Shown piece by piece: positions 57,533 through 61,764 of a stretch of DNA of 64,000 nucleotides; positions within the stretch are counted from its first letter, which is position 1, and each line of letters starts with the position of its first letter. The stretch is from Oligoflexales bacterium (lineage in GTDB: Bacteria > Bdellovibrionota_B > Oligoflexia > Oligoflexales > JALZUQ01), in assembly GCA_023301465.1 (NCBI GenBank), contig JALZUQ010000048.1:1-64000 (forward strand), written 5' to 3'. The position numbers were made by a program, and so were the translations under genes. The notes under the pieces were generated by a model. That model was not told where the DNA came from and did not search any database. It worked only from the letters and a program-made list of their open reading frames with translations.

Positions 57533-57755
57533 AATAAAAAAAAGGAAAGAAGGGGAGTTAAAGGTGCCGGTACCCGAGATCCAATCAAAGAAAGGAGGTG
57601 AGCACCGGCTTGAATCTTCACCCGAAGATGAGGGCTATGAGGCCATCACCTCCGTGCTACTGGTTCCTAGTTCTGTCACCATGCACCACCTCCTTTCCTA
57701 AGCATATAGCTTATGGGCTCTTGGGTTAGGGTCATCCTTTAACCTATTGGAGCCT
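57533..57755 (-). ncRNA. putative structured ncRNA of unrecognised class
   Basis: Minus-strand sigma70-like promoter, at least five mutually compatible helices including an 11-bp SD/anti-SD-like stem, U8 tract at 57543-57536. Confidence 0.6.
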
Positions 57756-57761
57756 ATAATT

Positions 57762-57790
57762 ATTATATAGGAAGTCGAAGTCTCAGACAA
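57762..57790 (-). promoter_or_regulatory. sigma70-like promoter for the putative ncRNA
   Basis: TTGTCT (57790-57785), 17-nt spacer, TATAAT (57767-57762) on the minus strand. Confidence 0.6.
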
Positions 57791-57812: not shown

Positions 57813-58217
57813 TTATGATTCAGCTTCTTCGTCGGTCGTTTTGGCTTCTTCTTCGGCTTTTTCACGTCCAGCTTTCAAGATTTCAATCACCATGGTTTCT
57901 ATTTCCATGTCTGATTTTCCTTGGTGTTCCGCCATAAGGTGAAGCATCTGTTCTGTAAGCTCGCTTCTTTTACGAGGATCACGATAAAGCCCGTAAGTCT
58001 TTACGCGTTTTGTCATCGCACTAATGGGGATACTGCGTTTTTGTGCGTAGTTTTCTGTAAGAAACTTGGATGCCTGAACACGGTGAAGAAAGTAAGCGAT
58101 AAAGTCATCATCCTTACTCCATTCTTGACTACTACGACGGGTACGCTTCTTTTTTGTCGGAGTTTTCGTCGTTTTCGTGGTTTTAGCTTCTTTCTTTAAA
58201 TCGTCAGCAATCGACAT
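57813..58217 (-). CDS. hypothetical protein with Lys/Arg-rich N-terminus
   Basis: 134-aa charged ORF (AKTTKTTKTPTKKKRTRRSSQEWSKDDDF). Confidence 0.55.
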   Translation of the reverse strand: MSIADDLKKEAKTTKTTKTPTKKKRTRRSSQEWSKDDDFIAYFLHRVQASKFLTENYAQKRSIPISAMTKRVKTYGLYRDPRKRSELTEQMLHLMAEHQGKSDMEIETMVIEILKAGREKAEEEAKTTDEEAES

Positions 58218-58372: not shown

Positions 58373-58606
58373 ATGTTTAATATTTGCAAAGAGAGAGAAG
58401 AATATATGCCGGGAGTTAAAGTCAGAGACAACGAATCCGTAGAACGCGTGATCAAAATTTTCAAAAAACAAGTTGAAAAAGCAGGGATCATTGCAGACGT
58501 TAGAAAACGTGAATTCTACGAAAAGCCTAGTATTCGCCTAAAAAAGAAAGCTCTGGCAGCTCGTAAACGTAAAATGAAACAAATCCGTAAGTTCGGCCAC
58601 TCTTAA
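58373..58606 (+). CDS. rpsU: 30S ribosomal protein S21
   Basis: [55 protein letters not shown]; likely start at MPGVKV (58406). Confidence 0.92.
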
Positions 58607-58667
58607 TTTTTATTTTAGTTTCAAAGCTCTTTCGTTTGAATGAAGCTTACAAACTGGTTCTATTTTA

Positions 58668-58715
58668 ACAAGCCACCTCATCTATGTTTTTTGCATGATG
58701 AGGTGGCTTTGTTCG
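58668..58715 (+). terminator. terminator-like hairpin after rpsU
   Basis: aagccacctcat...atgaggtggcttt inverted repeat. Confidence 0.7.
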
Positions 58716-58968
58716 TTTATGTAACAGCTAAGGTTTCGGTCTTGAGCTGTGGTTTTTTAAGGCATCTAGTTCCTTGGTTCTTTTATTCAAATAAACTCTC
58801 TGTAAATGATTGACATTTTTCTTGGAACTCAGTACACCTTCAGTTCTTAGATGTCCTAAAGGTACGCCTTTCGATATGAAAAGCCTCTACCGCTTCCTTC
58901 CAAGGATAGTATCACGATAGTCTCGTGCCTCTAGTTGACGTTGAATTAGCAGAAGAGAGGTGAGACTT

Positions 58969-59286
58969 ATGGATCGTGAGAAGATTCGCATTAAATTAAG
59001 AGGTTATGATCACAAGTTGCTGGATCAATCAGCCGCTGAGATCGTTGAGAGAGCAAAACGTACGGGTGCTAGAGTTTCTGGTCCAATCCCATTACCAACC
59101 GCGATTAGTCGTTATACAGTGCTTCGTTCGCCTCACGTAAACAAGAAGTCTCGTGAACAGTTCGAAACTCGCACACACAAAAGAATGTTAGATATTTTAG
59201 AGCCAAAGCAACAAACCATTGATGCTTTGATGAAGCTTGATCTTTCTTCTGGTGTAGACGTACAGATCAAACTTTATAACAAATAA
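58969..59286 (+). CDS. rpsJ: 30S ribosomal protein S10
   Basis: [43 protein letters not shown] gagaggtga before ATG at 58969. Confidence 0.97.
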
Positions 59287-59328
59287 ATAAGTGACACATA
59301 AAAGTGATAACACAGAGGTATAGTTAGT

Positions 59329-59997
59329 ATGAACAATGTTGGATTAATTGCAAGAAAGGTAGGGATGAGCCGAATGGTCGATGACCAAGGTCAGCTGACT
59401 CCTGTTACCCTGCTGCAAGCGACTGAGCAGACGATCACTAAAAAATTGACGACTGACCGTGATGGCTACCAAGCTATTCAAATTGGTTTTTTCGAAAAAT
59501 CCGAAAAAAACCTATGCAAAGCAGACATCACAAGACTTCGCAAAAACGAGATCGCAAAAAACTTTACAAAATTCACTGAGGTTAGAGTTGAAGATTCTTC
59601 ATCTGAAGGATTAGAGCTTGGTTCTGATCGTACAGTTGAGATTTTCAATGAAGTTCAAAGTATCGACGTAACTGGAGTTGTTAAAGGTAGAGGTTTTCAG
59701 GGTACTGTAAAACGCTACAACACAAAGACGGGTCGTAGAACTCATGGTTCTCACTTCCATAGACGTCCGGGTTCACTCGGTAACTGTACGACTCCGGGTC
59801 GCGTAATGAAAAACAAAAAACAACCGGGTCAAATGGGTACCAATAAAGTTACTGTTTTAAACCTTAGGGTTTTAGACGTTGATTTAGAAACAAACACTAT
59901 CGCAATCAAAGGCTCAGTGCCAGGAACGCGTAATGGGTTTTTATATTTAAGACCGAGCATCAAAGCAAAGCCTTCAAAAGCAGGAGGTAAAAAATAA
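59329..59997 (+). CDS. rplC: 50S ribosomal protein L3
   Basis: GLIARKVGMSRM, GRGFQGTVKRYN, GSLGNCTTPGRVMKNKKQPGQMG. Confidence 0.97.
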   Translation: MNNVGLIARKVGMSRMVDDQGQLTPVTLLQATEQTITKKLTTDRDGYQAIQIGFFEKSEKNLCKADITRLRKNEIAKNFTKFTEVRVEDSSSEGLELGSDRTVEIFNEVQSIDVTGVVKGRGFQGTVKRYNTKTGRRTHGSHFHRRPGSLGNCTTPGRVMKNKKQPGQMGTNKVTVLNLRVLDVDLETNTIAIKGSVPGTRNGFLYLRPSIKAKPSKAGGKK

Positions 59998-60626
59998 TGG
60001 AAGTTAAAGTTCACGATATTGGTGGTAAAGCAGTTGGAAAAGCAAATCTTTCTGATGATATCTTCAATCAAAAACTAAACGACCATGTTCTTCATTTAGT
60101 AGTGAAGGCATACCAAGCAAATCGTCGTCAAGGTACTCATGCAACAAAGACTCGTTCTTTAATTCGTGGTGGTGGCAAGAAGCCTTTTAAACAAAAAGGT
60201 ACAGGTAATGCTCGTCAAGGTAGTACGCGTTCGCCAAACCATGTTGGTGGTGCAATCGCTCATGGGCCGCAGCCAAGAGACTACACTCAGCAAATCAACA
60301 AGAAGACAAAAAAACTGGCAACCAAAGTTGCTTTGTCAAACCGTGCACAAAACAACGCTTTATACGTGATTGATGATTTTAAAATGACTGCTTACAAAAC
60401 AAAATCAGTCAACTCAATTTTAAGCAACTTAAAGATTGAGAAAGCTGTGTTTGTGGGTCATTCAAATGATGATTATATGTTGAAGTCTACTGGTAACATT
60501 CATGGTGCAGAATACTACGATGCAAAATTATTTAACGCAGAGAATGTTCTTCGTTATCCTAATCTTGTTATCTCAAAGTCTGCTATTGATGCAATTACTG
60601 CTAGATTTGAAGGAGCAGAGGCATGA
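59997..60626 (+). CDS. rplD: 50S ribosomal protein L4
   Basis: YQANRRQGTHATKTRSLIRGGGKKPFKQKGTGNARQGSTRSP. Confidence 0.97.
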   Translation: MEVKVHDIGGKAVGKANLSDDIFNQKLNDHVLHLVVKAYQANRRQGTHATKTRSLIRGGGKKPFKQKGTGNARQGSTRSPNHVGGAIAHGPQPRDYTQQINKKTKKLATKVALSNRAQNNALYVIDDFKMTAYKTKSVNSILSNLKIEKAVFVGHSNDDYMLKSTGNIHGAEYYDAKLFNAENVLRYPNLVISKSAIDAITARFEGAEA

Positions 60627-60913
60627 AATATTTTCAATTAATTGATAGGCCTTTGGTCACAGAAAAAACAAACTTACTCAGAGAAGCAGCTGTAAAAACC
60701 TACGTTTTTAAGGTTGAGAAAACTGCTTCAAAAGATGAGATTAAAGCTGCGTTTGAAAAAATCTACGATGTTAACGTTGCGACGATTCGCACGGCAATCG
60801 TTAGAGGAAAAATGAAGCGTCGTGGGATGCATATGTATAAGCGTCCAACATATAAGAAGGCATTCATCTCTTTGAAGAATGGCCAAAAATTTCCAATGTT
60901 TGATGAGAATTAA
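60623..60913 (+). CDS. rplW: 50S ribosomal protein L23
   Basis: [33 protein letters not shown]. Confidence 0.96.
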
Positions 60914-60924
60914 GAGGGATACTC

Positions 60925-61764
60925 ATGGGTATTAGAATATACAAAGCAATGACACCGGGTACACGTGGTATGTCCGTTATCAATTACAGAGATGCAATTG
61001 ATAAAGTAAAGCCGCTTGCAAAACTAACGGCTCCTATTCGTAAAACAGCTGGTCGTAATAACACTGGTCGTATTACAGTTCGTCACCGTGGTGGTGGTGT
61101 TCGTAGACGTTACAGAATTATTGACTTTAAACGTGTTAAAAGAGAGATCCCTGCAAAGGTTGAGTACATCGAGTACGATCCAAACAGGACTTCTTTTATC
61201 GCAAGATTGCTTTATAAAGATGGCGAAAGATCATACATCATTGCTCCTGAAGGAGTTAAAAAAGGTGACGTGATTATTGCTGGTGCTAAGGTTGATGTAA
61301 AGCCAGGTAATGCAATGCCATTATCTGCAATGCCACTTGGTTCTATTATTCATAATATTGAAATGAAACCCGGTAAAGGTGCTCAACTTGCACGATCTGC
61401 TGGGTCTTCTGTTCAGTTAGTTGGTCGTGTCGCTGGGTATGCTCAGTTAAAGATGCCATCTGGCGAAATGAGAAGAGTCCCAGAAGCTTGCATCGCAACA
61501 ATCGGTTCTGTGAGTAACGGTAATCACTTTAATGTGAAGTTAGGTAAAGCTGGTAGAAAACGTTGGATGGGTATTCGCCCAACTGTTCGTGGTGTTGCCA
61601 TGAACCCAGTAGATCACCCGCATGGTGGTGGTGAAGGACGTACCTCTGGTGGTCGTCACCCTGTGACTCCTTGGGCTGTTAGCACCAAAGGTCATAAGAC
61701 AAGAAAGAACAAGCGTACTAACAAAGATATTATTCGTCGTCGTTCTAAGAAGCGTAGAAAGTAG
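60925..61764 (+). CDS. rplB: 50S ribosomal protein L2
   Basis: [46 protein letters not shown]. Confidence 0.98.

Follow-up and report, generated by a model that had tools for sequence, protein, structure and literature searches.

The question raised by this locus is what lies in the gap between a sugar transferase gene (PF02397; 56814..57521, plus strand) and a minus-strand gene for a 134-aa protein with no significant Pfam match (57813..58217), in a window of 64,000 nucleotides, i.e., the whole stretch of DNA analysed, which belongs to a fragmented Oligoflexales assembly (G000). The original prediction placed here a free-standing, structured minus-strand non-coding RNA of undescribed class. 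The structure, the free-standing position and the lack of a known class were borne out, while the term "non-coding" misses a micro-ORF. Sequence comparison across the order gives good support to a structured RNA family that is absent from Rfam and conserved in Oligoflexales, and the predicted anatomy of this RNA, i.e., an exposed SD element (SD1), the micro-ORF and a series of hairpins, also has good support.

The RNA is predicted to extend on the minus strand from about 57754 to 57566 or 57536, i.e., about 200 bases, and to have its own promoter. The sigma-70-like promoter TTGTCT-N17-TATAAT that had been read in this gap is indeed present on the minus strand (57762..57790) and matches 10 of 12 consensus positions; TAAAAT- or TAATAT-like boxes, judged by eye, also stand 5' of the first hairpin, H1, in the relatives. 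The transcript likely starts near 57754. Its 3' end in the window genome is uncertain, between 57566 and 57536, in agreement with the doubt voiced earlier: no consensus terminator was found at the window locus, where a weak terminator-like hairpin on the minus strand (57566..57609; GCCGGU 57604-57609 with ACCGGC 57566-57571) is the counterpart of the clear, strong CCGGC...GCCGGUUUU terminators of the relatives. The U8 tract noticed before (57536..57543, minus strand) exists and provides an alternative 3' end.

The search for a known class, which had been proposed as a check, gave none. Across the 64,000 nucleotides, cmscan with Rfam 15 returned no match at the gathering threshold; relaxed to E ≤ 10, the search of the locus gave only CC2171, with 12 bits against a threshold of 75 bits and on the opposite strand. 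The reported lack of 6S and tmRNA hallmarks also proved right: 6S RNA (RF00013) was ruled out, the 6S RNA of this genome being located on another contig (C8:150011-150189), and ARAGORN detected neither tRNA nor tmRNA in the window. An open-access library yielded no RNA biology for Oligoflexales, and the main text of two structured-RNA surveys mentions neither Oligoflexus nor Bdellovibrio.

Collection of homologues was more productive: 30 other genomes carry them, which indicates that the feature itself is not a chance product. A conserved core was found by blastn in many members of Oligoflexales, and the covariance model of this core (R1) matched 31 of 47 Oligoflexales genomes from 8 of 11 families, with E values of 1e-15 to 1e-40; in the remaining members of the order the model detects no copy, a negative that extends only to its sensitivity, and some of these assemblies are incomplete. 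There is usually one copy per genome, and one genome (G018) has two in the R1 search. When 85,462 species were scanned with a gapped pattern, 25 loci were obtained, and those with informative titles were Oligoflexales-type MAGs (Oligoflexus, Pseudobacteriovorax and similar) except for one "Chromatiaceae" contig; several were titled only "Proteobacteria" or "bacterium", and the majority of this group had already turned up as Oligoflexales members in the genome search. Outside Oligoflexales, no homologues were found in 16 other genomes of the phylum, in the pattern scan, or among viral contigs and plasmids, neither of which gave a match. Some matches were rejected. The weak model matches in a sister-order genome (G053), the sole matching one of the 16, were due to chance in AT-rich DNA; those in G013 and further order members without the RNA had no SD1; and the loosely classified "Chromatiaceae" contig (L025) matched the pattern by chance, with no hairpins and no matching ORF. 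For the fold and ORF counts given below, 30 distinct copies were used.

The minus strand folds at −81.7 kcal/mol (z −3.9), none of 200 dinucleotide shuffles being as good, and all complementary segments named in the original prediction exist. The consensus order, obtained with two covariance models and the 30 copies, is H1, H2, the exposed SD1, H3, an outer helix (P_out) enclosing H4, and the terminator. The 5' hairpin H1 (57716..57754, minus strand; GGCUC...GAGCC with inner GGUUA/UAACC) has a local fold of −12.5 kcal/mol (z −3.4), and its mean z over 29 copies is −2.0. It displaces two of the helices predicted earlier, P1 and P2, neither of which is conserved: their 5' segment folds locally as H1 in the relatives as well as in the window genome (GGCUC 57750-57754 with GAGCC 57716-57720), and the relatives mostly have no comparable 5'-3' pairing. 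The predicted UAAGC-UAUAU-GCUUA hairpin, by contrast, is the conserved and covarying H2 (57699..57713, minus strand). The next hairpin, H3 (57661..57681, minus strand), contains the start-codon region, and its upper part UGGU/ACCA is the portion of the predicted GUGC-A-UGGU...ACCA-GUA-GCAC hairpin that proved conserved; the candidate helix GUGC/GCAC at its base is well paired but has no changes on both sides, and it shares positions with P_out, for which the support is good. Hairpin H4 (GGAGGUGAUGGC-cucaua-GCCCUCAUCUUC; 57624..57653, minus strand) has the UAG stop in its loop and a mean z of −3.0 against shuffles of its 3' side. The AUCUUC-GGGU-GAAGAU hairpin put forward earlier competes with it, AUCUUC being paired with GGAGGU in H4. 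In most relatives, H4 is enclosed by P_out, i.e., GUAGC 57656-57660 with a downstream GCUAC; this helix is present in 21 of 30 copies versus 7.4 expected, and its partner strand is weak in the window genome.

Covariation was assessed with a structure-anchored model, as RNAalifold failed on a plain MAFFT alignment owing to the varying lengths of the hairpins. For this model (R2), six copies from a single genus were combined with a hand-written structure, and the model found all remaining searched copies at E ≤ 1e-6. In the alignment obtained with it, the paired cells amount to 93%, two-sided changes are seen in 20 of 24 pairs, and 86 compensated cells were counted versus 21 in shuffles, figures that should be read in the knowledge that the alignment was fitted to the structure and contains one spurious antisense row. 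The compensation was lost when the partners were slid by one to three columns. For H2, 99% of cells in the R2 alignment are paired and four of five pairs are changed on both sides; for H3, the corresponding values are 92% and four of four. Both hairpins also covary on the plain MAFFT alignment, an independent check, and the z of H4 and the count of P_out given above are further independent checks that point the same way.

Between H2 and H3 lies SD1 (GGAAAGGAGGUG; 57687..57698, minus strand), of which 11-12 nt are complementary to the 16S rRNA tail CACCUCCUUUCU. These tails were read in five related genomes; the 16S rRNA 3'-end pattern was not found in the G000 assembly, so for the window genome the pairing is inferred from the tails of the relatives. 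SD1 is identical in 21 of 30 copies, with GGAGAGG, GGAAGGG or a single TGAAAGG in the rest, and every internal variant replaces A with G, such that pairing to the 16S tail is retained via G-U wobble. Within the window genome, the 11-mer GAAAGGAGGTG is confined to SD1 and, as reverse complement, to a second element, and it is rare in the genomes of the relatives. This second element is a copy of the anti-SD (CACCUCCUUUC; 57590..57600, minus strand) that has the letters of the 16S tail and forms 11 bp with SD1. The 11-bp helix P3 of the original prediction thus exists and is the pairing of SD1 with the anti-SD, and it is limited to some families. The anti-SD (CCUCCUUUC) sits in the 5' arm of the terminator and offers 9-11 contiguous Watson-Crick pairs, at the same place, in the window genome (f1) and in most copies from f8 and f9/g10; it is shorter in f2 and f9/g15 and missing from the f5, f6, f10 and f11 copies. 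Where present, it might hide SD1 by pairing with it, or else interfere with formation of the terminator. A divergent second copy in a 7.3-Mb genome (L084; G018:C18:72434-72539) has an anti-SD in the H4 arm (CACACCUCC) and not in the terminator.

The feature overlooked until now is an ORF with a perfect SD in front of it (57635..57682, minus strand), an AUG...UAG frame of 15 codons encoding MVTELGTSSTEVMAS and starting 6 nt after AGGAGG. In each of the 30 distinct copies, an in-frame start lies 6-12 nt past AGGAGG and is followed by 13-18 open codons, with the stop falling within the H4 loop, and the same definition applied to the other two frames is satisfied by two and one of the 30 copies. 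The start is AUG in 9 copies and GUG or UUG in 21, and the stops are UAG (15), UAA (14) and UGA (1). Within the frame, three codons before the stop, lies a second SD-like element, SD2 (GGAGGUG; 57647..57653, minus strand), read as codons GAG GUG and forming the 5' arm of H4. Its position relative to the stop is fixed in 29 of 30 copies, the stop following exactly three codons past a GAG GUN-type pair (GGG GUG in L065), and the gap from start to SD2 always consists of whole codons. When the SD1-SD2 region was shuffled, 6-17% of shuffles passed per copy, which amounts to about 1e-20 over 19 lineages, a figure that is only indicative, because the shuffle null ignores the structural constraint of the H3 arm and treats the lineages as independent. 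Translation of the micro-ORF is considered likely.

What, then, is preserved by selection? The RNA might simply be a small-protein gene, the 13-18-aa peptide being the product and the hairpins only tuning its expression. The strong SD, together with the conserved start, frame and stop, speaks for this, as do the recurring peptide ending SS(T/M/A)EVxxx and the retention of some peptides despite synonymous change (MVQGCCTSSTEVTVF in L027, L036 and L040). However, the codons of that ending coincide with P_out and the H4 arm, and the peptide changes where these helices have been rebuilt by double changes: L080 has MPPAGGINS with the helix kept as CCACC/GGUGG, and L041 has HCRMEVCVS with GUCGC/GCGAAC. 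No common hydrophobic or charged pattern is seen among the peptides, and the pooled pN/pS within genera is 0.97, although such a value says little against a role of the peptide, since the RNA fold also restrains synonymous sites. Since helices are rebuilt along with peptide change and pN/pS is 0.97, what selection appears to keep is the fold with its open frame, not the peptide; this conclusion is suggestive, and we regard the small-protein gene as unlikely. L080 (G019:C572) is the only copy found in f11, and its frame has stayed open with the rebuilt H4 and P_out (CCACC...GGUGG) and a different peptide.

Alternatively, the RNA could be a cis-acting uORF attenuator, in which SD1, when free of ribosomes, would pair with the anti-SD of the terminator arm and cause transcriptional read-through into the next gene. 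The layout of an ORF, competing helices and a terminator is classic for such elements, the anti-SD is located in the appropriate arm, and an M14 carboxypeptidase gene is the next same-strand gene, 199-390 nt from SD1, in f2, f6/g17, f8 and f9/g10. Nevertheless, the RNA persists beside next genes that are convergent (G000, G001, f6/g20, f6/g7, G033 and G042) or unrelated (PepP in f9/g15 and a 3-ketoacyl-synthase-like gene in f5), four families (f5, f6, f10 and f11) do without the anti-SD, and the anti-SD shows no clear association with a same-strand gene. A general role as a cis leader is therefore unsupported, because the identity and orientation of the downstream gene vary among the lineages and this gene is convergent in the window, and we consider the attenuator rather improbable. 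A purely non-coding RNA, with SD1 binding the 16S tail or a protein (as a decoy for ribosomes, or as a sponge of the CsrA type with GGA motifs) and the ORF as a by-product, is rather improbable as well: among unpaired elements SD1 is the best conserved and has a long complementarity to the 16S tail, and three GGA motifs are present, but a by-product would hardly keep its frame in every copy against the shuffle odds given above. CsrB-type RNAs repeat the GGA motif many times, and here only one GGA-rich stretch is exposed. A type I toxin-like mRNA silenced by SD masking, as in AapA3, would fit the masking of SD1 by the 11-bp anti-SD in the window genome, and SD-sequestering hairpins are known in the aapA3 mRNA (PMC6733600); such an identity is very improbable, given peptides that are so short, not consistently hydrophobic and barely conserved, and no antisense RNA was noticed.

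The reading that we favour, tentatively and at somewhat less than even confidence, is a free-standing structured regulatory RNA, the fold of which would be gated by translation of its own micro-ORF. The frame kept in all 30 copies, the compensated fold, the SD1 variants that still pair with the 16S tail and the variation of the downstream genes speak for it, and the small number of AUG starts (9 of 30) and the lack of the anti-SD in several families speak against it. A 30S subunit would be captured at the exposed SD1, and the ribosome would then read the micro-ORF, melting H3, P_out and H4; on terminating within the H4 loop, it would have its P-site codon about 8 nt from SD2. When ribosomes are scarce, the hairpins would re-form, and in the window genome, f8 and f9/g10, the anti-SD in the terminator arm could then mask SD1. 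Through its shape, its termination or its lifetime, the RNA would thus report or limit translation, and what counts would be that translation takes place, not which peptide is made. The regulatory output would bear on the lifetime or termination of the RNA itself or be exerted in trans. More doubtful, though possible, is that such RNAs constitute a new class, in which ribosomes must translate the micro-ORF of a free-standing RNA to set its shape and hence its trans activity or lifetime, the peptide being a by-product and the translation sensor being detached from any fixed gene. In any case, Oligoflexales gain a structured RNA family that has good support and is absent from Rfam, and it offers a clear case of a frame kept open through peptide drift and covariation of the RNA helices. 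If the passage of the ribosome is the signal, a uORF-type sensor would here have been freed from a fixed downstream gene.

Several neighbours of the RNA recur. In 14 genomes from f2, f6, f8, f9 and f10, the same strand carries an oligoribonuclease-like exonuclease gene (RNase_T) upstream, often directly 5' of the RNA, and an M14 carboxypeptidase, a spermidine synthase and a CopG-like protein occur repeatedly. The last of these (cl2; L030, L032, L041 and others) is a long low-complexity protein, rich in Asn, Gln and Asp, with a CopG-like ribbon-helix-helix stretch (PF12441, weak), and its gene adjoins spermidine synthase in several genomes. In the window, the Lys/Thr-rich 134-aa protein is encoded between the RNA and the divergent ribosomal protein S21 gene (58373-58606), which stands just 5' of the S10-L3-L4-L23-L2 ribosomal protein genes, the group including S21 spanning 58373-61764 on the plus strand; S21 also adjoins the RNA in a genome of the same family (G001, L044) and not in other families.

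Among known systems, the RNA is closest in anatomy to uORF attenuators such as fthC, with no fixed main gene. The fthC motif of Streptococcus (uORFC-39-1), which always precedes the same gene, consists of a hairpin, an exposed SD with the start of a short ORF, a second hairpin with the in-frame stop and a third that is the intrinsic terminator (PMC11109978). This layout is found again in the Oligoflexales RNA, with a weak terminator in the window genome. Unlike fthC, the RNA has no constant same-strand downstream gene (the next gene is convergent in the window), comes from a different phylum, and has additional H1 and P_out elements and, in some families, the anti-SD; the likeness drawn here is one of anatomy. 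By position, with its start and stop conserved and no consistent location before a main ORF, the RNA fits the "sORF" category of the same survey (PMC11109978); that category, however, expects coding-like conservation, whereas here the peptide appears hardly conserved, synonymous change being itself limited by the fold, and the compensated fold resembles the conservation of a structured RNA. As in the toiL uORF of E. coli topAI, a translation-stress sensor, a short ORF is present whose translation state would set the RNA fold, but toiL acts in cis on topAI and the Oligoflexales RNA is free-standing (PMC12121999). The aapA3 mRNA of Helicobacter is likewise a short mRNA with SD-sequestering structures and belongs to a type I toxin gene with an antisense antitoxin (PMC6733600); in the Oligoflexales RNA, neither a toxin nor such an antitoxin was noticed. 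Finally, long SD-aSD pairing helps weak starts and small ORFs in Staphylococcus aureus (PMC13009471), which recalls the 21 of 30 copies with GUG or UUG starts; the extended SD is a general mRNA feature in S. aureus, whereas the Oligoflexales 11-mer is rare in the genome.
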